Shown here piece after piece: positions 258 to 62,900 of a stretch of DNA of 64,000 nt. The stretch is from contig JAYKXP010000063.1 of assembly GCA_037176845.1 (NCBI GenBank), positions 124,001 through 188,000 of the forward strand, written 5' to 3'. How positions within the stretch are numbered: position 1 is the first letter of the stretch; the number at the start of each line of letters is the position of its first letter. The position numbers and the translations under genes were made by a program. This DNA comes from Paramarasmius palmivorus (lineage: Eukaryota > Basidiomycota > Agaricomycetes > Agaricales > Marasmiaceae). The notes beneath the pieces are model-generated. The model saw only the letters and a list, made by a program, of their open reading frames with translations. It was not told the DNA's origin and made no database searches.

Positions 258-363
258 ATTCAACAGTAATGGTGGTTTCACTATAAACAGCGGTGCAATC
301 AATAATGTCGTCCCATATGTCGAGCCTACTACCCCGACGTTTCGAGCTCTTGAGGACTATTGA
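258..363 (+). pseudogene. Relic of a GAFNNV-motif small gene, start codon lost
   Basis: Reading from 259 gives FNSNGGFTINSGAINNV, which matches the N-terminus of the intact family member at 47538 (MFNNSGGFNMNGGAFNNV). The bases before it (gtca-ttcaac) align with atcatgttcaac, so the ATG seems to have lost two bases. The frame runs to a TGA at 361-363 without the usual Gln/Asn/Gly continuation or the conserved splice donor. No function can be expected from this copy. It matters because it shows the family was dispersed and has been decaying here. Confidence 0.6.
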
Positions 364-12956: not shown

Positions 12957-13074
12957 GAAGTGACAAGTGTGACATGTCTTCCTTGAACCGCAACCGCAAC
13001 CATCGACGGGCAAAAAGGTGTGTATGCATCCTCTCACAAAATTTGCAGCGCTGATGTCAAATCATCTCACACAG
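12957..13074 (+). promoter_or_regulatory. Conserved F-box-gene leader and 5' intron
   Basis: 'gacaagtgtgacatgtctt' followed by ccttgaaccgcaaccgcaaccatcg is also found, in the sense of the gene, before the F-box genes starting at 23831, 27730 and 56004. In all cases it is followed by a GTGYGTAT donor. Here the donor is at 13018 and the acceptor cacacag ends at 13074 (57 nt); in the 23.8- and 27.7-kb genes the intron is 74 nt and ends two bases before the ATG. This is a shared 5' untranslated exon and probably part of the promoter. Confidence 0.6.
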
Positions 13075-13105
13075 CTCTAAAATCGCTTCGCAAGCGTCGG
13101 CAGCC

Positions 13106-22307: not shown

Positions 22308-23831
22308 CTAAGATTGAATCCTATACCCAAGTAATTCTTTCTCCTCGTCCTTTAGACTTGAATATACGACTCGAACCGCCAGTCCTTCGACTTGCAACTG
22401 TCCCAGTAAACAGATATCTAATCTCGGTACCGTTTCATTCCTGAGCCTCACATACGCAGACCAAAGTCCGCGATCTTTCCTCCGTTGAAGCATCTCCCCA
22501 AACGTAACCCAATCAAAGTGTTTCAAATGAGTCTCAAAGCGGAGGTCCCTTAGCTTTGGAACCAGGTCCCCACTACCCATGTCTAACCAAAACTCCTTCG
22601 ATATCTCCTCATTTACGAGCTCCAATATAACAAGACGTGGCATGTTTTTGAGGAACCCGAGCACATCGTCGCCCTTGAAGTATATCGGCTGAATTCGAAA
22701 ACTTTCGATGTTGGGAGACCGCGTGATGAAGGAGTCGAATGCGAGTATAAACTGTGCAAGGCCTCTCGGATAGTATATTTTGTATTGCGAGTTCCAGTAG
22801 TGATGAACAGGGCAAAACTCGTCAAGCGACAGCGTGGTCAAACCCGGACAATTGAGCACGTTGATGAGGCTTGTGTAAGCATCAAAGGAACCACCATTGA
22901 ATAAAACTCGCAAGGTACGCAATCCTAGGGGAGAAGGAATCGTGATATTATTGCGTGGATTTGTATGACTGCCGCCGTCGACCAGACGAACGTCTGCTGA
23001 TGTTAAGTATGGGAGCTCGCGCAAGACCGAATAGAAATGCGAGATATCCATGTGGTCGATAGTGATATGAGTTAAGTTGGTGTTTGGAAACCGTGGTTGT
23101 TCATATGTTGTGTAATGGTCATATCTGCGTAAGAGCGGTAACTCAGAAAGCGCCTGGGGAATGCAGTCAGGATCATTCCGAGACCCTAAAGGATGGAGGT
23201 GAAGGATGATATGTTCAAGATTCACGAGGCGATTGCGAATATGAGGGATCGTATACAACGCAAAATCGTATTCCTCAATCTCCGCGGAATAGAGATAAAG
23301 GGCGCGAATTCGACTGCCGTGATTAAGAACCAACTGAAGGAGCCTCCATGAAAGCGATTCATTGCCGACATGGATCCCCTCTGATGGTGCCATGAAGTCA
23401 CCGAAGCCTTGGTGATACAAACACATTAGATTGAGGGTGATTGTGAGAGGATGGGATTTAGAGCGCTCGAGATGTGCTTGTAAGCGTTCAATGGTGTGTG
23501 CTGGATAAGCGAATCTCGGTTCATCACATATGTCCAGCCAAAGATAAGACCAAAGGGCTGGTGTCGATGTGGACACGTTACGCCAGCTATGGCACACGCC
23601 GCCCAAATCCGAACCGAGGGAATATGAGGGGGCACTAGAGTGATAGAATGGCTCTGGCGGACGAACATGAAATTCACTCTTGTACTCCAACTTTGCCATA
23701 TTCCAATGATAGGAACCAGCACGGTTTGTATGGGGGACCAAGGCGAGAATTTTGGAAAGGATTTCTGGGGGCAAAGCTTGGATTGGGGAGGATGCATTCG
23801 GAGGCGCCTCTACCAGCAGCAGTTCGCTCAT
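22308..23831 (-). CDS. F-box domain protein (507 aa), intact
   Basis: ATG at 23831 (MSELLLVEAPPNASSPIQ) follows a 74-nt 5' intron (23907-23834). Residues about 18-100 hold the F-box: IQALPPEILSKILALVP and GGVCHSWRNVSTSTPALWSY. The rest is a long hydrophobic-repeat region as in other basidiomycete F-box proteins, ending EGLAVRVVYSSLKDEEKELL. F-box proteins are substrate adaptors of SCF ubiquitin ligases; no substrate can be inferred. It is about 75 percent alike by eye to the gene at 26216-27730 and shares leader and 3' flank with it, so the pair is a recent duplication with the APH gene between. No interruption is seen. Confidence 0.88.
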   Translation of the reverse strand: MSELLLVEAPPNASSPIQALPPEILSKILALVPHTNRAGSYHWNMAKLEYKSEFHVRPPEPFYHSSAPSYSLGSDLGGVCHSWRNVSTSTPALWSYLWLDICDEPRFAYPAHTIERLQAHLERSKSHPLTITLNLMCLYHQGFGDFMAPSEGIHVGNESLSWRLLQLVLNHGSRIRALYLYSAEIEEYDFALYTIPHIRNRLVNLEHIILHLHPLGSRNDPDCIPQALSELPLLRRYDHYTTYEQPRFPNTNLTHITIDHMDISHFYSVLRELPYLTSADVRLVDGGSHTNPRNNITIPSPLGLRTLRVLFNGGSFDAYTSLINVLNCPGLTTLSLDEFCPVHHYWNSQYKIYYPRGLAQFILAFDSFITRSPNIESFRIQPIYFKGDDVLGFLKNMPRLVILELVNEEISKEFWLDMGSGDLVPKLRDLRFETHLKHFDWVTFGEMLQRRKDRGLWSAYVRLRNETVPRLDICLLGQLQVEGLAVRVVYSSLKDEEKELLGYRIQS

Positions 23832-23833
23832 GA

Positions 23834-23980
23834 CTGAGCAGTCAGTGGCTAGAGCTATAACCAGTTTTCAGTCTTCCACTCCACTTAAAAGAAATACAGA
23901 TACGCACGTTTATCAACTCTTCCCTGACGATGGTGATGGTTGCGGTTCAGGAAGCAATGTCACGCTTGTCACTCAATGAC
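23834..23980 (-). promoter_or_regulatory. Conserved F-box leader exon and 5' intron
   Basis: 'gacaagcgtgacattgct' then tcctgaaccgcaaccatcaccatcg, with donor GTGCGTAT at 23907 and acceptor ctgctcag ending at 23834. The equivalents are at 27733-27875 and 56008-56150. Confidence 0.6.
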
Positions 23981-24478: not shown

Positions 24479-25542
24479 ATGCCTCCCTTGCGTGAAACTC
24501 TTCTCACGTTCATTTACCGAGCCCTGGGATTTCTCTCGGACGTTTTGGACGATCTTTTATTGCCCTTCGCTAGAAAACCTGTAGTCCCCCTTGTAAGTAA
24601 GCTTATTTCCATTTTCACTGTTAGTCTAAAAGAACGTCTTGGTAGGGTCCGAATGAAATCGACGACTGGCATGACGATAAAATCCTAGAGCATCTCGGAT
24701 TGCCACCTGACCATCCAGCGCGCATTCCAGGTCTTCCAGACTCTGTTCTACAGCTTACGCCCACTATCATCGTCAAGGAAGAGATCCTAAAGATGGAAAA
24801 TCCTGATATATGGTCCGTTGAGGCCGAGACAATCAGGCTTGTCTCGAATCATACAATAATCCCAGTACCACATGTTCGAAGGGTCATAAGGGCAGACGAG
24901 GCCACATTGGTTATGGTGATGGATATCATTCCCGGCCAGCCCCTGGATCGTGTATGGCCTTCCCTGCCATTTCACAAACGACTTTGGGTAGCATTCATGC
25001 TGAGAAGATATATTCGACAGCTTCGCAACGGACTTCGTGCATCATCTCTCACACCCCCCGGTCCTCCTTGTCCCGGATCTTTGGGCCCAGCTAGATGCCA
25101 TGCCCCTTCCGTATTGGATAATCTGGGCATACCGTTGGCATTCCAGACGCAACAGGACTTCTGGCGATACTTCAACAGCCTGGGACAGGATCATTCTCCA
25201 CCTTTGCGCAGAAAGGGTTATGACGAGAGTGTACCATTTATCCTATCTCACCTTGACTTGACTCAAAGGAATATCATACTCGGAGACGATGGACAGCTGT
25301 GGTTGATCGACTGGGGGTACTCAGGTTACTACCCCCAGTGGTTCGAGTTTTTGGCCATGAGGAATATGGGGGATCCGGATGATAACACGTTTTGGAATCT
25401 TCTGATACCTTTCATATGCGGTCCCAGCTTTGAAGAGGAGAGAATGTACAGGTAAATTCTTCAACATTTGTTAATGTTCAACAAAAACTCAATCTCCAGC
25501 CCAGATTCCTTTGACAAAGTAGTATCACATCCAGACTGGTGA
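24479..25542 (+). CDS. APH-fold phosphotransferase (kinase-like) protein
   Basis: Three exons: 24479-24592, 24646-25451 and 25500-25542, with introns of 53 and 48 nt (GTAAGT...TTGGTAG and GTAAAT...CTCCAG); all join in frame for 320 aa. Exon 1 encodes a short hydrophobic N-terminal segment (MPPLRETLLTFIYRALGF). The core shows the family order: PTIIVKEEI with the probable ATP-site lysine, VSNHTIIPVPHVRRV, LVMVMDIIPGQPLDRVW (hinge), the catalytic loop LSHLDLTQRNIIL (HxDxxxxN) and LWLIDWGYSGYYP (metal-binding D). Fungal members are called aminoglycoside phosphotransferase family, but the substrate is unknown. The C-terminus stops at HPDW-TGA, where the 18.2-kb pseudogene continues WWAQAVYAFF for about 45 residues, so the tail is probably truncated by a small indel. 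Confidence 0.82.
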
Positions 25543-26215: not shown

Positions 26216-27730
26216 CTAGGATTCAATCCTATACCCAAGTAATTCCACTTTCTCGTTACCCCATGAATATGACGAATGGACGACTCGAACCGCCAGTCCT
26301 TCAACCTGTAACGCCTCGAGCAGACGGATATCCAATTCCGGTACCGTTTCATTCCTGAGCTCCACATACGCAGACCAAAGTCCGCGATTTTTCCTCTGCT
26401 GAATCATCTCCCCAAACGCAAGCCAATCCCAGTGTCCCGAACGGATCTCGAAGCGGAGGTCCCTCAGCTTCGGAACGAAGTCCCCATTACCAATCTCTAA
26501 CCAAAACTCCTCTGTTATCTCCTCATGTCCGAGCTCCAATGTAATCAGATGTGGCATCTTTCTAAGGAGCCCGATCACATCGTGGGCCTTGAGGTCCGAA
26601 TGAAGTCGAAAACGTTCTATATTGGGGGATCGCTTGATGAACGAGTTAAATGCTAGTACCAATTGGGCATGGTCTGAGTTCGACTCAGAGGAATCTTCGT
26701 AAGGACCGCCAATTGACAGTGTGGTCAAAAACGGACAGTTGAGAAGATTGACGAGGCGCGTGAAACGGTCAAAACTCTCTTTGAGGAAGTGGGTGTCAGC
26801 GTTGAATCCCACGCACAATGTGTGCAAGCATAAAGGGGATGGAATCGTGATATTGTCGGGTACGGTTGTAATCCAGCGGCTGTCAAGGCGATCAACCTCT
26901 AGCGACGTTAAGTATGGGAACTCGCACAGAATCTTATAGAAGTTCGCGAGATTCATGCGATCAATAGTGATATGAGTCAAGTGAGTGGTTGGAAAGCGTG
27001 GTTGGCCGTATGCTTCGCAATTATCAAATCTTCGTAAGAGTGGTAATTCGGAGTACTTGAATGCCTCTGCAACGCAATAAGTATCCTTCACATACCCTTC
27101 GTCAGACAATGCCATGCTGAGGTATTCGAGATTCGTGACGCGACTTCGAATATGAGGGATCAAATGAGCCGCCAACGAGTGTGTGAGAGCATCGTCAGAA
27201 TGGAGGCAAAGAGAGCGAATACGGCTGCCGTGATTAAGAACCAGCTTGAGTAGGCTCCACGAAACGGGCTTACTGCCGGCATCGGTCTCCTCTGATGACG
27301 TCATGAACTCCCCGAAGGCCTTTTCACCCGAGAAGAGATTGAGGGTGATTGTCAGAGGATATACTTTCGAGCGCTCGAGATGTGCTTGTAAGCGTTCCAT
27401 GGCACATTCTGGATGGGGATACTGGTCAAATACATCCAGCCAAATGTAAGACCAAAGGGCTGGTGTGGACAAGGACACGTTACGCCAGGTATGGCACACG
27501 CGACCCAAATCCGAACCGAGGGAATATGAGGGAGCATAGTAGCTTGATTCTGAACGAACACGAAATTCGCTCTTGTACTCCAACTTTGCCATATTCCAAT
27601 GATAGGAATGAGCATAGTTGATACGAGGGATCAAGGTGAGTATTTTGGAAAGGATTTCTGGTGGTAGAGCTTGGATTGGGGAGGCTGCGTTCGAACGCAC
27701 CTCTAACGCCGGCGGAGGAGGTTCGCTCAT
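26216..27730 (-). CDS. F-box domain protein (504 aa), intact
   Basis: ATG at 27730 (MSEPPPPALEVRSNAASPIQ) follows a 74-nt 5' intron (27806-27733). The F-box is IQALPPEILSKILTLIP...GRVCHTWRNVSLSTPALWSY. It is a close paralogue of the gene at 22308-23831 with uninterrupted frame and the shared ending EGLAVRVVHSSYSW...KVELLGYRIES. The central region differs more than the F-box and C-terminus, as expected for a fast-evolving substrate-binding surface. Role as an SCF adaptor is inferred from family. Confidence 0.88.
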   Translation of the reverse strand: MSEPPPPALEVRSNAASPIQALPPEILSKILTLIPRINYAHSYHWNMAKLEYKSEFRVRSESSYYAPSYSLGSDLGRVCHTWRNVSLSTPALWSYIWLDVFDQYPHPECAMERLQAHLERSKVYPLTITLNLFSGEKAFGEFMTSSEETDAGSKPVSWSLLKLVLNHGSRIRSLCLHSDDALTHSLAAHLIPHIRSRVTNLEYLSMALSDEGYVKDTYCVAEAFKYSELPLLRRFDNCEAYGQPRFPTTHLTHITIDRMNLANFYKILCEFPYLTSLEVDRLDSRWITTVPDNITIPSPLCLHTLCVGFNADTHFLKESFDRFTRLVNLLNCPFLTTLSIGGPYEDSSESNSDHAQLVLAFNSFIKRSPNIERFRLHSDLKAHDVIGLLRKMPHLITLELGHEEITEEFWLEIGNGDFVPKLRDLRFEIRSGHWDWLAFGEMIQQRKNRGLWSAYVELRNETVPELDIRLLEALQVEGLAVRVVHSSYSWGNEKVELLGYRIES

Positions 27731-27732
27731 GA

Positions 27733-27875
27733 CTGAGCAATCAGCAGCTAGAGCTATAACCAGTTTTCAGTCTGCCTCTCCAATTAAAAGAACTACCGAT
27801 ACGCACGTTTGTTGGCTCTTCTCTTTACTAAGACGATGGTTGTGGTTGTGGTTCAAGAAGTAATGTCACGCTTGT
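27733..27875 (-). promoter_or_regulatory. Conserved F-box leader exon and 5' intron
   Basis: Same gacaagcgtgacatta / aaccacaaccacaaccatcg leader as the other F-box genes; donor GTGCGTAT at 27806. Confidence 0.6.
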
Positions 27876-33939: not shown

Positions 33940-34149
33940 TGACTTTATTGGATAGGTACCTAGAATAGAGAATATGATACTAGATACCATATCAGTAAGA
34001 GTGGAATATGCAAATGTAAGTGGCAACATACCTCAGACACTGTGCGTAAGTGACTGAGGTATGTGTGAGGCGCGGCAACACGTTTGTACTTGTTGCCACG
34101 TGTATTTATGTAATCATTGTCTCTCGTCTTCTGCTCGTTGCACTCAACA
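33940..34149 (-). repeat. Copia 3' LTR (by element strand)
   Basis: 210 bp, TG...CA, nearly identical to 45478-45687. It contains GCCACGTG and an internal cctcagacactgtgc direct-repeat word. Confidence 0.9.
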
Positions 34150-41181: not shown

Positions 41182-41479
41182 TATCTCTTTAAGTAGTGTG
41201 CAATACAATAATCTGGAATTTAGCATCGTTCACTGTCCTAGAAGTGATGAAAAGGAGCTGAATAGTCTGATATATTCTGGGGAAATTAATCCAGATACGT
41301 GCTAAGCCAAACAAATTTGATGTAACCTGCAGATGGGATATTGAATTCGGACTAGCCGAACAAATGATCAAATTTGATGGGTTTGAGCAGTTTTGCTCAC
41401 TTTCAGAGAGATTTGCACAAACCCAGACAAATCCGTTGACATCCGTCACTATTAGGGATTTGGGATTTTCCTGATGTTC

Positions 41480-42972
41480 CAGTACTAAGTTTCGTGTTCC
41501 TTTTAGGTATCGTACTACGCGTATGGCCTGTTCCCAATGTTTTTGCCCATAGCAACCATTGAAGCATGACAATTGTCTGACTGCGTAACTGATGTCAGGT
41601 CTGGTCCCAACTGCGAGGTACATCAGGGATCCAACCAGTTCTCTGTAAGGTAGGTTCTCAGCCATTTCCCTCTGCTCCTCCTTGGTCTGAGGACTGTCTT
41701 CTTTTGATAGTCGGATACCTGGGACCAGTGGTGTTTTAACTGGGTTTGCGCTGGTTTGTCCAAATTGGGTGATGATCCTGTCGATGAGTGCGGTTTGGGA
41801 GAGGTGGATGATTGTTTTTGTGCGGTCACGGTGAAGTCGTATCCCAACTACAAAATCAATGGTGCCGCCAGAGATCTCCCACTTTTCCCTCATCTGCTGC
41901 TTTAATTTTTCGATTTCTTTTTGGTTGCTGGCAGCACAGGTGAAGTTATCCACATGCACTGCACATAGGATTGTACCTGACTCAGATTTTCGGTAGTACA
42001 GGCAGTGTTCAACGCTGACTCGTTTGAAGCCCCAGCCGATCATTGCTTGGTGCATGGTTTGGTACCAGGTGCGACCACCTTGTTTCATTCTTTTTGAAGC
42101 TCCCACACATAGTCTTCCTTTCCAGCTTCTTCAAATCCTTCAGGTTGTTCCATATAGCAGGCTTCTGGCAGGATCCCGTGTAAGTATGCTGTTTTGGTGT
42201 CGAGCTGTTCCAGTTCCCAGTCAAGGGAGGCTGCAATGTGGCTGATGATTCTTAGGGTTTCCAGTCATCCAGTCGGAGAGGATGTCTTGTCATAGTCTTG
42301 CCCGTAGATGGCTTCAAAACCTCAGCAGACCCAATGGACTTTGTACCAGTAAACTTGACCATCTCCATTCCGTTTCCTTTGGAAGACTGGCTTGCCTTTC
42401 ATGATCTTCCGTTCAGCTGGGACTGCTGAGCGTGGAATGAGTTTGTAGACCCCGAGTTGTTTGATGGAGTCCATCTCCTCCTGAAGTGCATTGATCCAGT
42501 GTTCTCTTTCAGAATCAATGCTGAGGGCCTCTTTCATAGAATTTGGGTCATCGGGGTATTGTACCTCAATATCTGCGTTGGCAGCTGCAGTGATGGACTC
42601 GTCCAACCACGCTCTTGTTATATCTGGGTCCTCGACCTGGTCTGCCAACTCTAGTAGAGTTTCCTTGGGTGTGTGGAGGTCATTGTCCCACTCTGTATGT
42701 TTTGCAAGGGTTTCTTCCAGCCATGTGTGCAAGGCTTCAGCATTTCCTCCATCAGCCAGGATTTCTTGAAGCTGTGCTTGGGCAGCTTCCCATGCAGCAT
42801 CCTTCTGTGCACGCTCTGCCTTCACCCGTTCTCCGCTGGCCTTGGATTCTGCAATGACATGTTCTAGACGACTTGGTCCCGGTTCATGGTCCTTTTCTTC
42901 GGCTAAGCATGTAGAGTGTCTGACACCTGTTGTAATAGGTACCGGGGCTGCTGGTATTGGTGGTTCTGGCAT
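41480..42972 (-). pseudogene. Copia reverse transcriptase region
   Basis: 42972-42322 encodes the linker and RT start (SEREHWINALQEEMDSIKQL, MKGKPVFQRKRNGDGQVYWY). It is interrupted by TGA (42322-42324) then GFEAIYGQDYDKTSSPTG-TGA (42265-42267)-LETLRIISHIAASLDWELEQ, then a short frame slip into MKQGGRTWYQTMHQAMIGWG. The catalytic YVDD position reads HVDN (VHVDNFTCAASN), so the second Asp is lost. PYRELVGSLMYLAVGTRPDI and QAIRVVRYLKGTRNL mark the end of RT. Where related elements have GFxxxxG-DYDxTFSPxxR, the Arg is TGA here. Confidence 0.88.
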
Positions 42973-43008
42973 GGATTCCTCGTCATCTGAGCTGTAGTCA
43001 TCTGTTTG

Positions 43009-44349
43009 TCACTGGAGGCTGAATGGTTCTGGGGGAGCTGGTTTTATGGTTGTGATCCGCTTGCGGCAGAGTGGCCCTGATTCATGTGACTCAATGAATT
43101 GGACATGGTACGAGGTAATGACACACTGGGACTGTGGATGGTAGCAGAGATATGCTTTGGAGTCTGGTGAGTAGCCAATCATAATGCATTTGAGGGATCG
43201 TTCATAGATCTTTGGGTTGTTTTTGTGTTGTATCAGGACGTATGCCTCACAGCCAATCTCTCGGAGGTGGGAGAGGTTTGGTTTCTTGCCTTGTAAAGCT
43301 TCATATGGAGTTTTCCCTTTTATTGCAAGTGTGGGAGATCTATTGGCAGCGGCAGTTTTGATGAAGTGATCCCATAGTTTAACTGGTACTCCAGATGTGA
43401 TTTGCATTGCTCATGCATGTCCAAAAAGTGTGTGGTGTGATCACTCCACTTTGCCTATGTGGGCAGAGGTGTATGGTGCGGTGAATTGTTGTTGGGTCCC
43501 AACTTCCGCTAACCATTTTTCCATTTCCTCAGATTTCAGTTCTCTGTTGTCTGTCCGATAGGTACCAACTTTGAACTGGGGAAATTTGAGTTCATGTTGT
43601 CGTTCCCATTGTTTCAGCTTGGGGAATGCCATGGCTTTGGAGGTGAGAGGTATAGCCCATATGGAATTTGTGCATTCATCGATAAGTTCCGTTGAATATA
43701 GGTTACATCTAGTGGATGATACAGCTTCAGGGCCTGTGAGATCTACATAGACCACTTCAAACAAACAAGTAGCCTTTGGATTCTCCCTCTCCTTTGGCAC
43801 TGGGGTCTTTGTTTGTTTTCCCTGAATGCATGGTGAGCACTTGGGTGGTGTATGTGATAGGTCTGCTCACATACCTTCGGCCATATTGTTTCTGATCATG
43901 TGTTCCACAGATGCAACGTTTACATGACCCAGTCGGCGGTGCCACATCTCGAGAGTTGGTAGGCATTGGGTGATATGGGCATGTTCAACTTTGGTGGATG
44001 ATGAGCCATTTAGGGCGTAGAGTTTCTTGTTCTGGCAAGTCCCCGTTGTGACGGTGATGTTCTTGGTGCGTTCTACAATTGAACATGTTGTGTTGTCAAA
44101 AATGACTTTATAACCTTTGTCACAGAGACGTCCAATGGAGAGTAGATGGACAGTGGCCTGTGGGATGTAGAAGGCTTCCTGCAATCGGAGGTATGTTCCT
44201 CGTGCAGTTTGAAGTTTCACTAGGCCAACTCTGACAGTGTCGATACTGCTCCCTCTGACACCTTTGACAGGGAATGATTTGATTGGCTTGAGTTCAAGGA
44301 AATCGGAGTGTTCAGGGGTAAGGTGGATAGTGCATGCACTGTCAAGGTT
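43009..44349 (-). pseudogene. Copia protease-integrase region
   Basis: Just after the TGA at 44350-44352 comes NLDSACTIHLTPEH, the aspartic protease site in the form DSA. MWHRRLGHVNVASVEHMIRN and KCSPCIQGKQT give the HHCC zinc site of integrase. VVYVDLTGP, YRTDNRELKS and HIGKVE mark the D, D, E catalytic residues. TGA codons at 43867-43869 (after AEGM), 43441-43443 (after GKVE, where ERSHRT is usual) and 43411-43413 (HA-TGA-AMQ, usually RARAM) break the frame. The rest (SGVPVKLWDHFIKTAAANRS...) matches the integrase C-terminus. Confidence 0.88.
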
Positions 44350-45463
44350 TCATGGTCCAGTGTCTGTGGTCATGTATGCGAATTTCGGTCCAGAGATGGG
44401 TTTGATGGGGGTGTCTGGAGCAGCTGTGGTGGGTTTGGTGTATTCGTGCCAATTGACTAATGCTTTTGCATCTGCCATGAGGTTTTCCGTGAGTACCATT
44501 GAGAGTTCACTATCAGAGATGTTGGAGTAACCGTATTTCTCTGCCGTAGCGATGAGGTTGTCATTTGGTGTGATGGCACTTGCCGCAACTTCAGTGTCCT
44601 CCTCCTCGACAAGGCGATAGGCCTTCCCAGATTCATCCACAAATCTGCATCCCTGCTTTCCCTTGTCGTTCGAACTCTTCCCCTGCTTTGCCTCTCGTGC
44701 CTTCTTCCTTGCTGTGAGAACTTCATCCCTCTTCCATGGGCCCACCTGGTGACCAACACTCTTCAGTTTTATGTGGTCCCAGGCAGCCGGGGACCGTGCA
44801 TTTTGGCCGGTTCTTGTTTTATGGTTTGGGTGTTCGAGCTGCATGAGCTATGGCATTTGCACGCTCAGAGTCCTTTAGCTCCTTTTCCACCACGCGGAAT
44901 TCCTGCTCGAGACGGGTAGTGATGCTGGACAGTGTGACGTTTGGTGACGAGATTAGGAGTGTGTCAAGGGATTCGCGGATGTTGCGTAGCTCGGTGCCCA
45001 TCACATTGAGGAGTATGATTTTATGGAAGGCGTCTTGAGTGGATATGCCAATCTCAAAGATGTGTTTGATGAGGTTGGCAATTTTGGACATGGTGTCAGG
45101 GATGGTGGTGTCTTGTACAAAGCAAATGCTGAAGGCTTCCTCAATGAGGGAGATTTGTGTGATGTTTCCTTGCTTCCGGTGACAGGTCTCAAGCGCTTCC
45201 CACATTTCGTGTGCGGATTTGCAGCCGCGTATATGTTTCTTCTCTGTTGCGGTTAAGCGCATTCGGATGCATGCACACGCCATGTCGTTGTTGTCCTCCC
45301 ATGCAGCAAGATTGTCCTTGTCCATGGCCGTGGGTTTCAGCACCTTGTTGAGCATGTAGCCCTTTAGCTGAACAAGTAATAGTGTATCGAGGCAGTTCTC
45401 GGACCAATCAGTCCAGTTGCCTTTGATGATGTCGAGTGGCGGGAATTCTTGGAATTTGGACAT
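44350..45463 (-). CDS. Copia gag region
   Basis: 45463-44819 encodes 214 aa starting MSKFQEFPPLDIIKGNWTDW, with LNKVLKPTAMDKDNLAAWED and AHEMWEALETCHRKQG. This is the UBN2-type Copia gag. The frame then slips into 44844-44350 (MQLEHPNHKTRTGQNARSPA...), where the zinc knuckle is eroded, ending at TGA 44350. Start 45463 lies 14 bases after the LTR. Gag forms the particle; the knuckle normally binds RNA. Confidence 0.8.
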
Positions 45464-45477
45464 GTCTTTGATGCGAG

Positions 45478-45687
45478 TGACTTTATTGGATAGGTACCTA
45501 GAATAGAGAATATGATACTAGATACCATATCAGTAAGAGTGGAATATGTAAATGTAAGTGGCAACATACCTCAGACACTGTGCGTAAGTGACTGAGGTAT
45601 GTGTGAGGCGCGGCGACACATTTGTACTTGTTGCCACGTGTATTTATGTAATCATTGTCTCTCGTCTTCTGCTCGTTGCACTCAACA
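45478..45687 (-). repeat. Copia 5' LTR (by element strand)
   Basis: 210 bp, nearly identical to 33940-34149. Gag begins 14 bases inside. The few LTR differences point to a fairly recent insertion. Confidence 0.9.
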
Positions 45688-47537: not shown

Positions 47538-48440
47538 ATGTTCAACAATAGCGGCGGGTTCAACATGAACGGTGGTGCATTCAACAACGTTAGTGGGAAT
47601 CAATACAATAACTCGGGTGATGGTCCCCAGCACGCCGGTGGAACCCAGCACTACGGCGGAACGCAGAATCAGTATTCTGACGGGAACCACTACAACAACA
47701 CCGGTGACGGTCCTCAGCATGTCAACAGTGGCCACGGTACCCAAAATAGCCACATGATCGACAGCCGTTCACGAGGTAAGTCTATCCAAGAGACTTGATC
47801 ACAAGCTGAGGTCCCCAATATAGTAGGCCCTGGACAGCCCGCGGGCTGGGAATTCGAGCGACCGGAGATGTATCACTCCCCTCAATCAGAGCCGTGGGCC
47901 TATATGTCTAGCAGTCAACCAGGACATAGACATTATCTAAACCCTGCTCTCCTTCAGCCACGGCTAGATTATTATCAGCATGGTCGCTCCCGAGATTTCA
48001 GCCATCCTTATGATGCTGGCTGGGGCATCTCTCAACCGGAGGGAAATCATTTGCAATACATTCCAGGACGAGATTCTCGGTCTCCACCCACTAGCGACCG
48101 GCACCCATATCCTCCTCCACGAGCCCCATCCGAAGGAGACAATCATGTACATCTTCGGGGAGCGGCACCGCCCGCACAACGACCAGCTCCTCGACCAACC
48201 ACTCATTCTGCTCCTGGTTACGTGGAAGAGGGTTATGTACACCCCGACTCTCGTTCCTCACAAGATAACTATGTGCCTTATGGTACCCCAGCCTCACAGC
48301 AACCAAATCAAAAGAATACGCACCGAGCGGCGCCTGAGTCTGGCGAGGATGAAGATGCTGATGGTGCTCGCGACGAAGGACTTGGAGAGCCGGTCCGTAA
48401 TCCTGAATTGCACAAGTTTGTTCGCTCAGATCCAAAATGA
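47538..48440 (+). CDS. Intact two-exon GAFNNV-motif protein (283-284 aa)
   Basis: Exon 1 (47538-47775) encodes MFNNSGGFNMNGGAFNNV, then Gln/Asn/Gly/His/Tyr repeats (AGGTQHYGGTQNQY...), ending RSR-G at a GTAAGT donor. The acceptor is a tandem TAGTAG: exon 2 may start at 47824 or 47827, both in frame, giving one optional residue (intron 48 or 51 nt). Exon 2 (to 48440) reads GPGQPAGWEFERPEMYHSPQ and continues Pro/Tyr/Arg/Ser-rich, with an acidic ESGEDEDADGARDEG patch near the C-terminus. No enzyme or membrane motif; predicted disordered. Exon 1 is a polar, Asn/Gln/Gly-rich sequence with two related strand-like motifs (GGFNMNG, GGAFNNV). It is the clearest functional member of the family and the only one with an undamaged frame across the intron. 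Confidence 0.72.
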
Positions 48441-50589: not shown

Positions 50590-53125
50590 TCACTGGCCAG
50601 ATGGTACTCATCAGGGCCCAGACTGAGTCCACGAGGAATCTCTCTAGTGAAGTAATCATGCTAGGTCCAATACAATGCTCCGGAACGGTGAAGGAAAGGA
50701 CATTCATCAGGGAAACAAATACTTATCGCTTCTCTCTCGTTCAGGTAGTTGCTGTTCAAGAAGCAACATTACGCGTGCCATTTCTGAGTTAAAGGGCGAT
50801 GGACGGGCGGCTCGCTGTAACCTAGAGATCTACCCGTGTATTCGTGTCCAAGTGAAGAAGCATACAAGAACGTTCATAATCATTCTCCGGAAGTTTCACC
50901 GGCACCCCTCGGGGTGATATGCAGGAACGATAAGCGCATGAGATCTAAGGCGACAAAAGACAGAACGGCGAATGTGACAACGCCGCTCATAGTACACGCT
51001 ACGTAATAGCGGGTATAACATAGGCGCTAGGATGATAGTATCTTTGTTCTTCGTCGGCCGAAAGGATACCTCGCGAATAGAAGGGAAGAAGTAGGGCTGG
51101 AGGACGTATCATCTGGGCCATTTCGTCTTCGAAGTACGCGTAATGAGCTGTAGAATATAACGGGCTAAATTGAGTTGCTGTAAAATCACAACAAAGTAGC
51201 GCCCATACCATTCATCCGACCAGACACGATGACATAAAACAATATGGGAACCGTGGTGAGACTACCTAGCCATCGGGTATGGGCGGGAAAGGTGGATGTG
51301 ATCGTTGTAAAAAAGGGTTTAAACAGTGGGGTGGCTCTCATCGTTACGGTAACGGGAGAAGAGGGATATAACGTGGGCGAACGGGAAGGGGCGGGAGTTC
51401 ATCAAGCTCGACATGAGTAGGGGTAACAAGAGAGAGCGATTTAGATATCATGAAGGGTGCAGCGCTTCAAGGGTTCGAACATTTCAGAGTCGTCTAATCA
51501 GCTTCTGTCACCAAAGAGTACGAAGTACGAGTTCAATAGATGGAGTTCACGCGTGCTCGCAAGTCAAGATGGTAGCAGATGGAAAGGGATCAGAAGATGC
51601 GGGATTGTGCTGGTTTCTTCTTCTCGGATGGCAGAATGTGGGTACTGTCTTTGTGGGTTGGATGCTTCAGCTGTATACGCGTTAGCGCTTAGTATCGCAG
51701 AGGGAGAAAGAACGAAGAACGTACCAGCAAGCCTTGTAGCCCATCTTTTCTTTGCGGAACCGCCGTTGGAATCTGTAGTAAAGCCATCTGATAACTCTTT
51801 AGCCATGACAAAAGAACGAAGAGGGGGTAGAGTACTTACTACTTTAAACGCTCTTTGCCGAGTGTCGTTGATCGATACAGGCATGACGTATGGGACGACG
51901 AGCTTGCGTGGTTGATATGAACAAGCATGAACGGATAGGCGTTGAGACAATTTCCTTTCGAAGTCGTTGCACGAGATGTCTTGAGCCTTTTGGGCATGGT
52001 TTTCAGCAAGAGGGACGGACTCGAAAGAGCGTGAGACGTACCGGTGTTCGAATTTATTCTTCACAATCAACTTCCGCGGGCTTGGAGGAAAGATACGGAA
52101 CGCGATCGAAAGGGATGCGAGAAGCGAGAAGAAAGAGAGTATCGACATACGAGGAAAGGAATCGAATGCGGAATGGGGTTGGAAAGACCATCGAATGAAG
52201 GCTGCGTGATCGGAGAGCCTGTTCTGCCATCGAGGCGACGACTTCGTGTAGGAGAAGGAAAAAAATCAATGTTAAGGCGTTGGGATGTTGCATGAGGGTG
52301 TTGCGGCTGTGCCCACGAGGCTGCAGTATTGTCGGGTCAGGGGACTGCTTCCTTCATGACGAGGGGAGTTGCGCTGAGAAGAGGAGGCGAAGACTTTATG
52401 GGGGTTTTACAAATTGTCCTGGGCCTGAAGAGTTTGGTTGTCAGGGAAGGCACAAAGAGGAATAGTGTGAGACGTACCAGCGTTCCAGTAACGCCATCAT
52501 TGATAGGGTGTCATGCGTGGCCTCTCATAGCACAATCGTTAGATATCTTGACCCATAGTAGCCCATGCTTTCAACCTGGTCGGACCATCAGATAAGAAAA
52601 GCCGACGAGAGATACACAACGTACCGTTCACGCCGATGACGTTTCTTGTATCCCGAAGATGATATTGAGCATACCCTACAGGAGTGTCCAGATGTTCAGT
52701 GGGAGTCTGGAAGGGTCGCCGTTCGAGAGTAGAGCGCAGCGACATCGTAGTCGAGGAAGAGAAAAAATTCTCCACGTGGCAGTCAGAACCGACATCGTGA
52801 CGTGAGATTAAGCGCCCGCCTCTTGATCCTCTACCACGACATCTTCAACGTCCAGCATAGCAAGGTTCCGTTTCGGAAGGTGTGAGCATACATCAAGTGA
52901 GCAAATCTTTCATAAAACTCATACTTGATTCAAACGACAGAACACCACCTTCGTTTCAGCTTTCCGAGTCACGGCGTTCAATGGATCATGACTCTATAGG
53001 TCCTCTTCAATTTCCCTTTTACACCTCGTTTAAAGTCATCCTGTCGCTCCTCATCAACCTTTACTAGCAATGTATTCATATTATGATATATTCGCGCTTC
53101 GCTGGGTAATAACTCAGACATTAGC
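50590..53125. repeat. Left arm of a large inverted duplication
   Basis: The reverse complement matches 59955 to 64000. Landmarks include the cacgcgtgtcac/cgtgccatttctgagttaaa run, ccgatggctaggcag, tttgcggaacc, gaccatcagataag and cgtttcggaaggtgtgagc. Identity is high but with many small differences. The right partner has an extra 1.82-kb fold-back insert and continues past the window end. Confidence 0.85.
51564..52790 (-). pseudogene. Unassigned multi-exon family member in the left arm
   Basis: Probable exons on the minus strand: MENFFSSSTTMSLRSTLERR...RDTRNVIGVNG (52775 onward, GTACGT donor); an intron ending gatggtccgaccag (about 52578); a short exon ending DGVTGTL before a GTACGTC donor; and later frames to 52148-51564 (CNDFERKLSQRLSVHACSYQ, then GSAKKRWATRLAG with GTACGT donor). 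CCACGTGGCA lies just upstream of the first ATG (about 52779), as in the copies at 20.9, 31.1 and 57.0 kb. Stops are present in the middle exons. No domain was recognised. Confidence 0.35.
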
Positions 53126-54150: not shown

Positions 54151-55046
54151 TCAGTGTTTCTCTCCAGCAGAACTCATAATAGGAGCTATCAAGTGCTCGA
54201 TATCACTTCTTGTTTCCTCATTGTCATCAAGGTTGAGCCGGCGTACAGGGGGAAAGTCCTCGTGGTCAAGTGTCTCTCGGATTGAGGGCTCAGGTCGACT
54301 ACAAAGGAGGATTCGGGGTAGGGGCTTGCGACATTTTGAGAGGAATGATGCAATGAGACATAAAACCTCTCGCTGTATGGGACCTGTGGAGCATTCATCG
54401 AGCGCATCGATGACTATAAGTCCCCTAGATTCGGTGTGCAATAGCGATGACCATGGCTCGAGGATCAACTTCTCAAGCTGCACGTCGATGGACGCCTTTA
54501 AGACACTTGGTGTCTGCTCAATAACCTGTTCGATAAGACGTCGGAACTCCGGAAATTTGCGGGCCAAGTCATGTGCGATGACGAGAAACAGCCGCGATGG
54601 GTTATTCCGTTTTGGCTCGTCCCGCCAAAAGAAAAAGCTTGACACAAGCATTCCTTCTGGGTCGGTCTTCTCTGCAATGGTTTGCGCAACAGCAGACTTT
54701 CCCACGCCGGCAGGGCCTGATAACCAACACAGACGCTCCGTCGTGGGATCTTCTCGAGCCCACTTGAGTATAGATTTCTGGATCCTTTCGCTTGTATCTT
54801 TGTGACACCGAGGCGGCGGATAGCAAGCGCCGGAGCTGTACATAGCCTCCACGCTGGCTATCTCATTCCAAAGCATTTGCATGGCTGAAGATCAAGTCAG
54901 AATTTTCCTGCAAATTAGCAAAAAAAAACAGAAGTACCATCATTTGGTTTCATAGTATAATTGTTTGTCTGATCACCACTAACATTGCTGAACTGCCCTT
55001 GATGAATGTTAATGTTGCCGGAATTTGATATGTGGAGCGCCGTTTG
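54151..55046 (-). pseudogene. Truncated NACHT NTPase (NLR-type) with N-terminal GAFNNV-like motif
   Basis: Exon 1 (from about 55046 to 54938) reads NSGNINIHQGQFSNVSGDQT then NNYTMKPND. A 53-nt GTAC...TTCAG intron (54937-54885) joins it in frame to AMQMLWNEIASVEAMYSSGA. The NACHT core follows: CHKDTSERIQKSILKWA, Walker A GPAGVGKSAVAQTIAEK, Walker B GLIVIDALDECS and LLCSRPEPSIRETL. In fungi such STAND NTPases oligomerise as immune or incompatibility receptors. The frame stops at 54151 after IMSSAGEKH, before the rest of NACHT and any WD40/TPR/ankyrin sensor. The motif exon has no ATG: an in-frame TGA lies at about 55047-55049 and the sequence beyond belongs to an F-box pseudogene. So both ends are truncated; it is a fragment captured in a rearrangement. 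Confidence 0.8.
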
Positions 55047-56004
55047 TCAAGCGACAATGTGGTCAAAAATGGACAGTTGAGTAGGTTGATGAGGCTTGTG
55101 TAAGCATCGCAGGAGCACTGAATGACACATCCAGGTTTTTAAAGCCTAGGGAAGAAGGAATCGCGATGTTATTGGGTCATGTGCAGTCGTCAAACAGATT
55201 AACGTCTGCTGATGTTAAGTATGGGAGTTTGCGCAGGACCGAATAGAAATGCGAAATACCCAGGGAGCAGAGAGTGATGTGAGTCAAGTTGGTGTTTGGA
55301 AACCGTGGTTGTTCGCACATTCCGTAATGATCGTATCTGCGTAAGAGCGGCAACTCGGAGAGTGCCTCGGGAATGTAATCAGGATCCCCACCCACAGGCG
55401 ATGAACTATCGAAGCAAAGGATGATGTGTTCGAGATTCGTGAAGCGACTTCCAATATGAGGGATTGTATAGAACGCAAAACGGCGTTCCCCAGTCTCCCA
55501 GGAATTGAGGTAAAGAGCGCGAATGCGACTGCCATGATTAAGAACCCACTGAAGAAGGTTCCATGAAAGTGTGTTATCGCCAATATGGATCCCTTCTGAT
55601 GACTCCATGAATTCCCCAAAGCTTTGATCATTCAAATAGACTCGATTGAGGGTGATTGTGAGGGGAAACGATTTGGAGCGCTCGAGATGTGCTTGTAACC
55701 GGTCAAAGGTGCGTGCTGGATAAGGTGCGTCGCATATTTCCAGCAAAAGGTAAGACCACAAGGCTGGTGTGGACAAGGATACGTTACGCCAGCTATGACA
55801 CACCTGGCTTAGTTCCGAACCAAGGGAATATGAACGGGAGTCTTCGGAAAGAGTCTGAAATTCGCTCTTGTACTCCAATCTTGCCTCAGCCAAACGAGAG
55901 GAGTTAGGGACCGAGGCGAGTATCTCAGAAAGCACCTCCGGTGGTAGAGCCTGGATTGGGGAGAATGCGTTCGGACGCGCCTCCACCAGAGGCGGTTCGA
56001 TCAT
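55040..56004 (-). pseudogene. Truncated F-box gene fused to the NACHT fragment
   Basis: ATG at 56004 (MIEPPLVEARPNAFSPIQ) and an intact F-box (IQALPPEVLSEILASVP...SQVCHSWRNVSLSTPALWSY) match the genes at 23.8 and 27.7 kb for about 270 residues. TGA then stops the frame at 55177 (LFDDCT). Sequence homology continues past it with a further frameshift: NNIAIPSSLGFKNLDVSF and, in another frame, YTSLINLLNCPFLTTLSLD. It ends abruptly at about 55040, where the NACHT motif exon begins. The last 40 percent of the gene is missing. Confidence 0.85.
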
Positions 56005-56329
56005 AACTGAGGAATCAGTAGCTAAAGTTACAATCAGTTTTCAATCTTCCTCTTTAATCAAAAGAAACACGAATACACACGTTAATCAACTCCTTTCTGA
56101 CGATGGTAGTGGTTGCAATTCAAGAAGCAATGTCACGCTTGTCACCCATTGACTCCCTTTAGACGCTCAATCTGATGGGATTCGAACGCCACGAGGCGCA
56201 TAGGCGCTCAAAAATGAACGTGGTTCCATTCCACGGAATACTAATACAATAACTAGTCACCTCCTACTAGAACCCCACTTCACAGTCTGGATGATGGTGG
56301 ATTGCCTCTCCGTGTAAATGTTACTCCCT
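56005..56329 (-). promoter_or_regulatory. F-box leader and upstream region of the truncated copy
   Basis: gacaagcgtgacattgct (about 56140-56123, minus) and the leader that follows match the other F-box genes; the GTGTGTAT donor is at about 56080. Nothing else is seen. Confidence 0.5.
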
Positions 56330-57660: not shown

Positions 57661-59548
57661 GCTCTAAGAATGAGGCAATGTCGATGTATAAAGGTACAGA
57701 ACGAGTTTACCGGTGGTACTCGTATACCAGACCACACTATAGTAGCGGTATCTGCAACCAGCTTCCAGCTTTCATTCGCACCCGTATGTGTTCATAAGAT
57801 GAAAGAGAATCGACATTGTCATCACGAGAAATGGTGTTGAATGGAGCAGTAGGAGCTCCACCAGATACCCCTCATGTCGATCTAGCAACGAAAACATGAG
57901 GATATTATACATATTAGCCCTCGAGATGTAGTGCTGAGTCGTGAAGATTTGAAGCTCTGCAAGAGAAAACGAAGATCACGCCTTACCCAAGGGATCAGCC
58001 ATCCCAGGATCGTGTCACGGAAGAAACAATGTGCGTGTCCTTCTCCATCGTCCGAATTGTTTCATTCCATCGATACGCACATTCTGAAACTACGATCATG
58101 AAGGAGAAAGGTTCGGTTGTAGTAGCGCACAAGGGCGAAGAAGACGACATCTACATAGGCGGCCCTAGTGTCGGATGAAATGCGGCGCAGGTGAATACAT
58201 ACGTATTACTACACAGAAACCCCCTTGCCCGCAGTAATACCATTTCCGGATCAACATGCGAGAAACACGTTATGAGGACCAAGGAAACTTTGATGGCCTT
58301 GACTTTGCGCTGCCACAACCACACCTCAGAACCTGGGTTCTGACGGCAAGGAACAGTCGGCTGGGACCAGACCCTATTTTCGAGCCATGCCTTTAAGTCG
58401 TGAGAGTCTTGGCGTGGCCATGTTCAAGGACATGCTTGCAACTGCTCCAGGAAACGAGGCATTTGCGAAGCCTGTCTACCCAAGGTTTTAATCCCATGTG
58501 CATTGAGGCTTGCGCCTGGCTTGAACAGGGTTTTTGTTCCCGGTTTCGGTGTAAGCTTGAATGGTTGTTGGCATTTTCAATACGTGTGGATACTTGTAAT
58601 AAAGGATTGCTCCAGGACTAGGTTCGGTGCAGATGAAGGGTTCATGATTCACGTTAGCTATCAATGTTGATATCGTATTCATGTCTCGACGCTTCGGGTT
58701 GCCGAGTACCTTGGCTAATCTGGCTTGGAACTAATGTAGCGAAGCACAGGCAAAAGGCATCGGAATGAGCCTTTGACAGGTGCAAAGAGAAATGCTGACA
58801 TCTGGTCTGAGTTATGGAATACAATGTTTATTTACCGTCACTCATGATTATACAAGAGTCGCTAAAGAGCCGACGCAATGTCCGAGGGTATATTGTATCA
58901 AGTCACGGCGAACGCTGGCTATAAAGGAAAAGGAACGTGGCACGGAGTCAGAATACTTTGTCAAAAATACGACATAAATCGCCAAAGGCTTGGATGAACA
59001 TATACGCAAAGTCTGAGGAGTGAAAGAATAAGTATAATCATGCAAATGGTCAACCAGCACGATCTCTTGCGGTAGTCGACGTTTGCCATAGCGTTCAGCA
59101 GCGTTGTTGTCACTTTCATCCTGCCTCTGGGATGCAAGTTCTGATACCCTCTGTGGGTGTGTGACGCTGGGTTAGTCTGTGTGCGTACGCTTTTGTGGTC
59201 TGGAATCGCACGTATAAGCTTTCGTCTCACATTTGAGATGGACATACCTGAGATGCCATCGCTTTGAGAGATAGAATTAGTTTGACGTTTGTAGGCTTGA
59301 GTCGGGTGTAAAAAATTCTCAGCTTCATTTTGTGCGTGATCATGAGTCTCAATGCTCTGATGAAATGGAGGACGACCGTAATCGTGGTATCTCCCCTATT
59401 TTTCATGCTCATTATTATGGTTCATTCAATAGCAATTGGAGGAATTATGCACTTCAGGTCCGGGTTCATATTCATTACGACGTGAAAGCGATTGTCCGCA
59501 ACCTACATGCAGTGTCATTTTCACGTCCAGATCTAAACTGTAGGCCTA
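57661..59548. other. No gene recognised
   Basis: About 1.9 kb with only short frames on both strands; no domain, tRNA or second copy seen. Confidence 0.45.
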
Positions 59549-59755
59549 TTACTTACCATAATCATTATACTGTTCACCCGAGCCGGTGTTTATGTTCTGG
59601 CTTCCGCTACCATTGTTGATATTCTGAGGACCGTCGCCGTTGTTGTAATAATGGGTGCCGTCGATGTAGCTATCCCCACTGCTGCTATTATATTGATCCC
59701 CTTCGACATTATTGACGGCGTCGCGGTTAACGTAGGCTCTGCTGTCGTTAAACAT
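59549..59755 (-). CDS. GAFNNV-family small protein (exon 1 or complete, 68 aa)
   Basis: ATG at 59755 opens MFNDSRAYVNRDAVNNVEGD, with QYNSSSGDSYIDGTHYYNNG, then two related PQNINNG / SQNINTG units. The motif core here is AVNNVEGDQYN, close to the NACHT-linked FSNVSGDQTN. A GTAAGT donor follows at about 59552 after DYG, the position used by the other members. The second exon was not located, so the 68-residue readthrough may not be the real product. Composition is almost all N, G, S, Y, D. Confidence 0.5.
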   Translation of the reverse strand: MFNDSRAYVNRDAVNNVEGDQYNSSSGDSYIDGTHYYNNGDGPQNINNGSGSQNINTGSGEQYNDYGK

Positions 59756-59954: not shown

Positions 59955-62900
59955 AGGTCTGAGTTATTACCCGGCGATGCGCGAATAGGTCATACTATGA
60001 ATACATGGCTCGTAAAGGTTGATGAGGAGCGTCAGGGTGAATTGAAACGAGGTGTAAAAGGGAAAGAGGACTTATAGACTCGGAAAGCTGAGACGAAGAT
60101 GGTGTTCTGTCGTGTGAATCGAGTATAGATGTTATGAAGGATTCGCTCACTTGAGGTATGCTCACACCTTCCGAAACGGAACCTTGCTAAGCTGGACATT
60201 GAAGATGCCGTAGTAGGAAATCAAAGAGGCGGGCGCTTAATCTGACGTCACGGATGTCTGTTCGACTGCCACCCGCTACCTTTCCAGACTCTCACTGAAC
60301 ATCTGGACACTCCTGTAGGGTATGCTCAATGCCATCTTCGGGATAAAAGACACGTCATCGGCGTGAACGGTACGTTGTGTATCTCTCGTCGGCTTTTCTT
60401 ATCTGATGGTCCGACTAGGTTGAAAGCATGGGCTCATATTGGGGCAAGATATCTAACGATTGTGCTATGAGAGACCACGCATGACACCTTGTCAATGATG
60501 GCGTTACTGGAACGCTGGTACGTCTCACACCATTCCTCTTTGTGCCTTTCCTGACAACCTAATTCTTCAGTCTCAGGACGACTTGTACAACCCCAATTAC
60601 AAGACAATATTCACCACAACGTCTCCACCTCCTCTCCTCAGCGCAACTGTCCTCGCCTTGAAGGAAGCAGCCCCCTGACCTGACAATACTGCCGCCTCGT
60701 GGGCACAGCCGCAACACGCTCATAAAGGAAACACCAATCACGCACCCTTCCTTGGATGGTTTTTCCATAATGTCGAACACCGGTACGTCTTGCGCTCTTC
60801 CGAGCCTGTGCCCTCGCCTTAAAAACCATACCCAACAGGCTCAGAACAACTTGTGCAACGACTTCGAGAGGAAAGTGTCCCAACGCCTACCTGTTCATGT
60901 TTGTTCATCAAATACGCAAGCTCGTCGGCCCATACGCCATGCTCGTATCGATCAACGATACTGAAGAATGTTTAGGGCGGTACGAACTCTACCCCCTCTT
61001 CATTCTCTCGACATAGCTGATAGATTATCAGATGGCTCTACCACAGATACCGACCGCGGTTCCGCAAAGAAAAGATGGTATACCGTTCAAAACGCTCAAA
61101 AATTATTTTGAGCGTACACATACAATGGTCACGGGAATATACACATACACATCATTTTTGCTGGAAGTACATACACACACATAGAGTATACGTTACGGTA
61201 CAGATCTCTATCCCATGTGCACACACATCAAATTGGGAGTTCTCAGAAGACTTTCATGCAAGGATAAATCACAACGGCCTGAATTCCCAAAATGTCCATA
61301 AAAGACCTATGTATTATCTTAGCTTATACATGGATAGAGTGATATTGGATACTAAGATTAAGGGTAATGATAGCTAACAGGTACTAGGTTCAGTTAGGTT
61401 GAGTAAAAGCAACAATGGAATTAACTACAGGTGATTATAGGTAATGGTAGGTTAGAAATGGTGTGGAAGAAATTGTGGAATCAATGGGAAATATTGAACG
61501 ATAAAGAGAGTGGTTTGGCATGGCAACAACTGCAGATGACGGCTGGCCGGAGTGATGATTGGAATGTTTCAGACGGACTGAGTGTCGAGGGAGATAGTAA
61601 ATTGTTGGGGACCATTGTAGGTTGAAGGATGTTGTCAGGAGTTGAGGGAAGTGTTGAGGGGTGTGTTGAGGGCTGGTTGAGGCTGCGAGGTGTGTCGAGG
61701 GAGTCGAAGGGAGTGCCAGATGATGGGGGAAGAAGTCAAGGGCGCGTGAGAATCCCTGATGAGCTGGCAGCGCCGTAAACCTTGAGCGCTCCGCTAGGCT
61801 TGTGACGGTGGATCCGGTCCGGTAACTCTGTTGGTGACATAAAAAATACTCGGTCCAGATTGTAACAGCACTGTCAGAGCCCGACGGAGGCTCACAGCAG
61901 CTCAGAGCCTCTCAGAGCCTGTCCAAGGTACTTAAAAAACCAAGGCGCTTAAATTTGAGAGGGAAAAGCTAAGCGCCTCATTGGCGCCGGAGCTGGAGCC
62001 AAGCGTCAGTCTTCCGTAGAGCTTATTTATAACATCTAACAAATTTATTGGTTGAATAGCTCTAAATAGTCGAAATTTGAGGATCTGAAAAATAATGTAG
62101 GAGTATGGTACTATCTGTTATTGGCACTACGCACTGAAGGAACGAGTATTTCATGTTTGTTGGCCGCCAATTATTACGTCATAACCTAGGTACCGGTCCG
62201 GATCATGATGTCTGCGCGGAGCGCTCAAGCTTTACGGCGCTGCCAGCTCATCAGGGATTCTCACGCGCCCTTGACTTCTTCCCCCATCATCTGGCACTCC
62301 CTTCGACTCCCTCGACACACCGGACGTCCTCGACAAGCCCACGACGCACCTTTCAACACTTTCCTTGGTACGTTCCTCCACAATCAACACCCCTGACACC
62401 ACCTCTCAATATTCAATGCCCCCAACTCGACACTTGGTCCGCCCACAATATTTCCATCACCACACCGTGCCATGCTGCAGCCATTGGCGCCGTTTATTAC
62501 TCACTCTCCTCCGTCGGCTTTACAATTTCATACCCACTAGTACTATCTCCAAGCCTCATTATTAGTCTGTACTTATAGTTACCTGTAGTTAGTTTCGTTG
62601 TCCCATGTACTCAACTCAGTAATGTCTGTTAGCTATCAATGTAATGCCTCTGTTTATAATTGATATAATAATACATGGGTTTATAGTGACATTCCATAAA
62701 TTCAGCCTGTTGTGACTTTATCCTTGCGTGAAAGTCTGATTCGAAAGCTCCCAGTTTGAAGTATATGCACATGTAACAGAGATCTGTGTGTATACTCTAT
62801 GTATGTGTATGTACCTTTGGCAAAAATGATGTGTATATGTATATTCCCGGACCATTGTATGTGTACGCTCAAAATAATTTTTGAGCGTTTTGAACGGTAT

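Follow-up and report, generated by a model that had tools for sequence, protein, structure and literature searches.

A motif of about 25 residues, with the approximate pattern xFxxSxxFxIxGGxFxNVxGxQxNN, is almost certainly common to the N-termini of NLRs and of at least two other protein classes in the palm-associated agaric Paramarasmius palmivorus. The motif was searched for in the six frames of the window (the whole stretch of 64,000 nucleotides analyzed, G000:C63:124001-188000) and then in the whole genome (68.3 Mb, 393 contigs). In the window it precedes the NACHT frame and opens the small genes 47538 (+), 2740 (-), and 59755 (-), and the sequence confirmed what an initial annotation of this DNA had proposed for these three genes.

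The same annotation had described a spliceable motif exon directly upstream of the NACHT domain. This was borne out by an in-frame join obtained when a 53-nt intron was removed, position 54885 of that description being the last base of the intron (54937-54885). The features of the locus are the following:

54938-55034, minus strand: motif exon of the NLR relic, ISNSGNINIHQGQFSNVSGDQTNNY / HISNSGNINIHQGQFSNVSGDQTNNYTMKPND, read from 55034, without an in-frame Met upstream.
54885-54937, minus strand: probable 53-nt intron (GT...AG) between the motif exon and the NACHT frame; paralogue L067 shows this junction too.
54151-54891, minus strand: NACHT-coding frame of the NLR relic; 246 aa, cut short in comparison with L067 (447 aa).

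The identity of the frame as NACHT was given by Pfam (NACHT, E 1.7e-12; NPHP3_N, E 2.6e-26). The motif, its recurrence and the splice sites stood as first described. The window copy of the NLR was considered a relic, since the stretch from the upstream stop to the motif contains no in-frame Met and the NACHT frame is truncated with respect to L067. In paralogue L067 (C63:217,001-218,900) a Met precedes the motif and the NACHT frame is 447 aa long; the homology of the window copy to it (85.7%) stops at residue 238 of that frame. Another paralogue, L062 (C149), has a Met at the motif, and its downstream frames lack the P-loop stretch. The public locus tags run consecutively, with no gap, from 012956 (C63:171.5 kb) to 012957 (194.8 kb), from which it appears that the window NLR and the 59755 gene are both absent from the public annotation.

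The relic is adjoined by a frame (55177-56040) that by eye is of the F-box type, one of four such frames in the window that look like a single family (13055-14551, 22308-23867, 26216-27766, and 55177-56040), three of which share SPIQALPPEILSKIL or a close form. Two stretches, at about 52560-53100 (-) and 59960-60450 (+), were also alike by eye in inverted orientation (e.g., gaaacgaggtgtaaaagggaaa), a pattern that points to duplication of a segment around this relic and the 59755 gene.

The small genes 47538 and 2740 and the two related loci of the window are organized as follows:

47538-47775, plus strand: exon 1 of VNI00_012956, with the motif followed by an N/G/Q-rich stretch.
47824-48440, plus strand: exon 2 of VNI00_012956, Pro/Tyr/Arg-rich and probably disordered, judging by its composition, with zero Pfam matches.
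2518-2740, minus strand: exon 1 of the 2740 gene, with the motif MFNNSGGFDIHGGAFNNVQGGQYNN followed by N/G-rich repeats.
1991-2463, minus strand: exon 2 of the 2740 gene, Tyr/Arg/Pro/Asp-rich; 231-aa product in our own model, with an unusual acceptor (AAG) and no public model seen.
6278-7540, minus strand: second, tandem copy of the 1991-2740 gene; its motif is interrupted by a TAA stop, and expanded repeats follow downstream.
259-324, plus strand: relic of a small motif gene (258 in the initial annotation), FNSNGGFTINSGAINNVVPYVE, which keeps FNSNGGFTINSGAINNV and has no Met.

The two-exon model of 47538, with its 48-nt intron, was identical to the public 284-aa protein VNI00_012956, and the 2740 gene follows the same plan. 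Both loci previously taken for relics of small genes (7540 and 258) were found to be so, the former by the stop within its motif and the latter by its missing start.

In the whole genome, three motif queries, of the small type (the 30-aa motif of 47538), the NLR type and the FTINGG type, detected 66, 65, and 40 places, respectively. Their union of 151 is a lower bound, since neither the window NLR relic nor the copies of the 59755 type were among them. Sixty-nine of these places preceded NACHT genes (40 read in sequence and 29 assigned by coordinate), 26 preceded members of a family of about 600 aa (23 read and 3 by coordinate) and 17 were unread. The other 39, sorted by reading of the sequences, comprised 21 small N/G-rich genes, 6 genes in an array on contig C32 and 12 unassigned places, and sequence was thus at hand for 102 places (40 NLR, 23 of the 600-aa class, and 39 others). 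The motif was located 207–301 bp upstream, on the same strand, of 40 of 85 Pfam-NACHT matches (from the best 86 of 222 candidates scored), which agrees with the earlier claim that it belongs to NLR N-termini; no motif place had a NACHT within 1.2 kb solely in another orientation. An in-frame Met was found at the matched start, or at most 15 residues before it, in 100 of the 102 readable places, a count that is partly circular, similarity to the motif having been the means of finding these places; among the NLR places read, 39 of 40 were Met-initiated. An HMM built from the NLR motifs alone and searched against 4,046 Met-start peptides, among which motif places are over-represented, recovered 22 small, 26 kinase-like, and 6 array peptides at E ≤ 0.01.

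The array on C32 (C32:493-533 kb) consists of six genes (L035, L068, L077, L078, L080, and L086) with a motif such as MFSRNSGVSISGGQFNNVSGDQVHI, whose core GQFNNVSGDQ is close to the motif of the window NLR and of L062. The gene finder model of the array genes was ended by a stop at 50 residues.

The fold of the ~600-aa motif-bearing family was weakly kinase-like, with no catalytic motif seen by eye, and no known family was found for these proteins. The chain was taken from a simple gene finder, the same one that over-ran a small gene. No clear Pfam domain match was obtained for the kinase-like and small proteins scanned, and in the AlphaFold2 monomer model of one kinase-like protein residues 1–47 were without structure (pLDDT < 50). 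A whole-protein similarity search, with a query that included the motif, returned 11 proteins, nine from Moniliophthora roreri and two from P. palmivorus. The NLR-only HMM matched the N-termini of eight of them (six of the nine from M. roreri and both from P. palmivorus), each with E ≤ 1.4e-4, whereas none of 731 decoys, shuffled or internal, scored better than E 0.19. The other three were not separated from the decoys: the near-identical P0010 and P0013 (E 0.34) and P0016 (E 1.8). These matches indicated that the motif and the 600-aa body travel together in another genus. Within the P. palmivorus genome the motif was detected in only 8 of 76 coordinate clusters of this family (from the best 77 of 789 candidates scored, with narrow motif queries). 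Hence, the carriers initially expected, NLRs and small proteins, were found as such, but they are not the only ones, the kinase-like family also carrying the motif, in M. roreri as well. The M. roreri protein P0016 ends in a C-terminal hydrophobic segment, possibly membrane-spanning (HALLIGLLLAFTMGIWFIGAFPSLFI).

A motif of this kind has been reported in fungal NLRs. In the parts of their survey available to us, Wojciechowski et al. (2022; PMC9815663) describe the meta-family NLR05/08/22/29/44, with 689 NLR N-termini, restricted to basidiomycetes apart from a dozen, and their grammar-based analysis places such Agaricomycete NLR motifs among the amyloid-like ones. As far as that text goes, the P. 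palmivorus motif is similar in being short, usually very N-terminal on NLRs, and present in Agaricomycetes in dozens of copies per genome; in the published wording the core spans about 25 residues, has hydrophobic positions and carries a G[DN] close to its end, a description with which the consensus of our profile A3 (32 sequences) is compatible. From its position, length, taxon and worded pattern, we infer that the P. palmivorus motif is probably the NLR05/08/22/29/44 motif. The table of the survey, in the portion accessible, gives 0 neighbours and 0 effectors for this meta-family, C-termini and neighbours having been scanned. The accessible text does suggest a few links to cell-death proteins, namely to BaMLKL C-termini in M. 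roreri and Fibularhizoctonia and to a HeLo protein beside NLRs in Gymnopus, mentions some BaMLKL-motif-NACHT fusions and raises the possibility that orphan motifs have their interacting motifs elsewhere than at C-termini (PMC9815663).

Unlike what is listed in the parts of PMC9815663 available, the motif in P. palmivorus is N-terminal on the 600-aa kinase-like family and on small proteins as well. The literature searched, which did not extend to preprints and most subscription journals, contained no mention of such N-terminal copies outside NLRs. A search for PF17100 (BaMLKL/HeLo) gave zero matches, controls included. Profile A3 matched no HET-s or RHIM among the solved chains up to E 10. Its best PDB matches were beta-helix chains of phage T4 gp5, which were not significant (E 0.067–0.53), and any resemblance of the motif to beta-helix repeats is at most suggestive; with Pfam, four of the 32 members had a single weak match each (E 0.036 or worse). 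According to the accessible parts of the survey, its largest basidiomycete NLR motif group (689) was left without a tabulated neighbour or effector. The P. palmivorus carriers are concrete candidate partners from a single genome, with one class recurring in M. roreri, and once these carriers are named, what basidiomycete NLRs signal to becomes directly testable.

Homotypic co-assembly would be the likeliest function of the motif, although we place it slightly short of an even chance. The motif would be an N-terminal homotypic interaction module, probably beta-arch or amyloid-like, as described for NLRs of Agaricomycetes. Besides the receptors, three classes of candidate partners carry it: the ~600-aa kinase-like proteins, the small disordered two-exon proteins and the small proteins with a C-terminal hydrophobic segment. 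An NLR that oligomerizes through its NACHT domain would cluster its N-terminal motifs, these would nucleate an assembly and the motif-bearing partners would be recruited to it. In such an assembly the kinase-like proteins may act as scaffolds or executors, the tail-anchored proteins may bring it to a membrane and the disordered proteins may serve as scaffold or dampeners. We infer the self-assembly of the motif, the co-assembly of the classes and the direction of signalling.

The N-terminal position at nearly all readable places would also suit a common signal with another role (localisation, tethering, processing) and no self-assembly, and the lack of structure over residues 1–47 in the monomer model is consistent with it. 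Nevertheless, an amyloid motif is likewise expected to be disordered as a monomer, and such NLR motifs are counted as amyloid-like in the accessible part of the grammar survey (PMC9815663); we consider this signal unlikely, though a serious alternative to co-assembly.

The selection acting on the small genes was analyzed by dN/dS. Whole-gene values in three pairs were 0.38, 0.38, and 0.44, and two pairs with VNI00_012968 were left out since the exons of that gene could not be placed. By segment (motif, rest of exon 1 and exon 2), the values were 0.10, 0.15, and 0.54 for 47538 against C63:194,792; 0.22, 1.32, and 0.34 for L016 against L020; and 0.34, 0.57, and 0.36 for L016 against L027. The motif was the lowest segment in all three pairs (0.10, 0.22, and 0.34), single values being rough because the segments are short. 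Thus the motif does open stand-alone small genes, as had been claimed, and these genes are under purifying selection. Two narrow searches for relatives of the small proteins returned 3 and 1 proteins, all from P. palmivorus, from 10 and 3 candidates, too few to establish their absence elsewhere. The gene at C63:74,589 corresponds to VNI00_012935.

The 59755 gene represents a subfamily of at least four copies (window, L029, L025, and L019) and shows the following parts in the window:

59557-59755, minus strand: exon 1 of the 59755 gene, tail-anchored type, with the motif MFNDSRAYVNRDAVNNVEGDQYNSS followed by an N/G-rich stretch.
58961-59395, minus strand: downstream open frame of the 59755 gene, ending in a hydrophobic segment at about 58997-59053, LTICMIILILSLLRLCVYV; the exon 1/exon 2 junction is provisional.

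The hydrophobic-tail frame of the last exon was open in all four paralogues, with gaps in multiples of three, a dN/dS of 0.28–0.88 and 25, 20, and 41 differences at the first, second and third codon positions, versus a dN/dS of 0.9–1.8 and a stop in one of the four copies for the rival frame. In the window copy, whose gene model is incomplete, the tail had a mean hydropathy of 2.57 across 19 residues. The C-terminal hydrophobic segment is therefore likely to be conserved among the four paralogues and is a candidate membrane anchor. In exon 2 the pattern of the favoured frame matched nothing, and the rival frame, present in three of the four copies, gave a dN/dS of 0.46–1.45. In this subfamily the strongest constraint does not fall on the motif (0.20–0.85, versus 0.04–0.33 for the rest of exon 1 where these were defined). 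Similar, candidate hydrophobic tails were also detected after three further small genes on C23 and C45; the hydrophobic end of a frame following C149:28234 is perhaps spurious.

The nearest motif neighbour belonged to the same class for 35 of 41 NLRs, 21 of 23 kinase-like proteins, 19 of 22 small proteins and 6 of 6 array genes. In no case was an NLR found to share its motif variant with a small protein, the best normalised cross-class score being 0.66; the variants are largely class-specific. Small genes were located within 20 kb of an NLR in 4 of 22 cases, compared with at most 4.8% of the genome, and within 50 kb in 8 of 22, compared with at most 9.7%. All four of the former and seven of the eight latter are on contig C63, and the nearest NLR was the window relic, counted as an NLR, for three of the four and four of the eight; this clustering is modest and its data points are non-independent. 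The 350 bp upstream showed no cross-class DNA match among 44 sequences (2 from the window and 42 places for which 300 bp or more were available: 18 small, 18 NLR, 5 kinase-like, 1 array, and 2 unknown), and on this ground it was rejected that one class had lately received a complete 5' cassette from another.

Mammalian CARD-only and PYD-only proteins cap or titrate, and the small motif-only proteins may by analogy be regulators instead of effectors, co-assembling with NLR motifs so as to cap or titrate them. Those scanned consist of the motif and N/G-rich or disordered sequence, with no clear Pfam domain, and the purifying selection on their genes would fit this role. However, the conserved hydrophobic tail of the 59755 subfamily exceeds the needs of a simple cap, and the small proteins have no close motif match to particular NLRs; we consider a regulator role unlikely. 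It is more improbable still that the small genes are by-products, in which motif exons copied from NLRs within a rearranging cluster would be drifting while their N/G repeats expand. Relics do exist (258, 7540, and the NLR copy), many copies lie on contig C63 and the 59755 gene is apparently unannotated, judging by the consecutive locus tags; but the three pairs with dN/dS of 0.38–0.44, the tail frame conserved in four of four paralogues and the upstream regions without any match between classes argue against it. Low-complexity convergence of Asn/Gly-rich N-termini, to which the N/G/Q-rich exon 1 of the small genes (by eye) might have pointed, is scarcely credible, since one shuffled small-type query gave 0 places and 0 candidates versus 66 places for the real one (a single shuffle with an empty answer, a weak control) and the NLR-only HMM placed 8 of 11 independent N-termini well above the 731 decoys, a better control of chance; on these two tests, chance or low complexity was rejected as the source of the motif likeness.

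If the motif does act in co-assembly, a wider network may be proposed for Agaricomycetes, unlikely as a whole in our estimation: one homotypic amyloid-like N-terminal motif would link dozens of NLRs, degenerate kinase-like proteins and tail-anchored or disordered adaptors, as an independent counterpart of RHIM (RIPK) and MAVS, with the partner motif N-terminal and the genes mostly elsewhere in the genome. If true, N-terminal partner motifs and dispersed genes would explain why few partners came from a search of C-termini and neighbours. As in HET-s/NWD2 (PMC4344463 and PMC4518210, in the parts accessible), the motif is common to an NLR N-terminus and other proteins. The partner's motif in that system, which the initial annotation had named as an example, is C-terminal, whereas in P. 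palmivorus the carriers read have it at the N-terminus (100 of 102 readable places); moreover, unlike in HET-s/NWD2, no pore-forming domain was recognised in the proteins scanned and the genes appear not to be regularly adjacent.

The joining of a short motif, common to other proteins, to a kinase or kinase-like domain resembles the RHIM of RIPK1/RIPK3, as described in the accessible parts of PMC9444067 and PMC12881547. Unlike RHIM, the P. palmivorus motif gave no profile match to the solved RHIM chains, and the kinase-likeness of its carriers is weak. The position of the motif in RIPK also differs from the N-terminal placement in P. palmivorus. Tail-anchored adaptors like MAVS have an N-terminal module, a disordered middle and a C-terminal hydrophobic segment, as in the 59755 subfamily. 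No CARD was seen in this subfamily, unlike in MAVS, and the likeness is one of architecture, homology not being claimed.

Other features were observed in the window. Pieces of a Copia-type LTR retrotransposon polyprotein were recognised by eye at 41189-45517 (-), and a stretch encoding NVSGNIPQTLCVSD, at 34007 and 45545, fits the loose motif pattern, probably by chance. The frame at 16466-17404 (-) is transposase-like and, by eye, presumably of the Harbinger type, and that at 24646-25455 (+) is one which we take to be phosphotransferase-like (HLDLTQRNIILGDDGQLWLIDWG).
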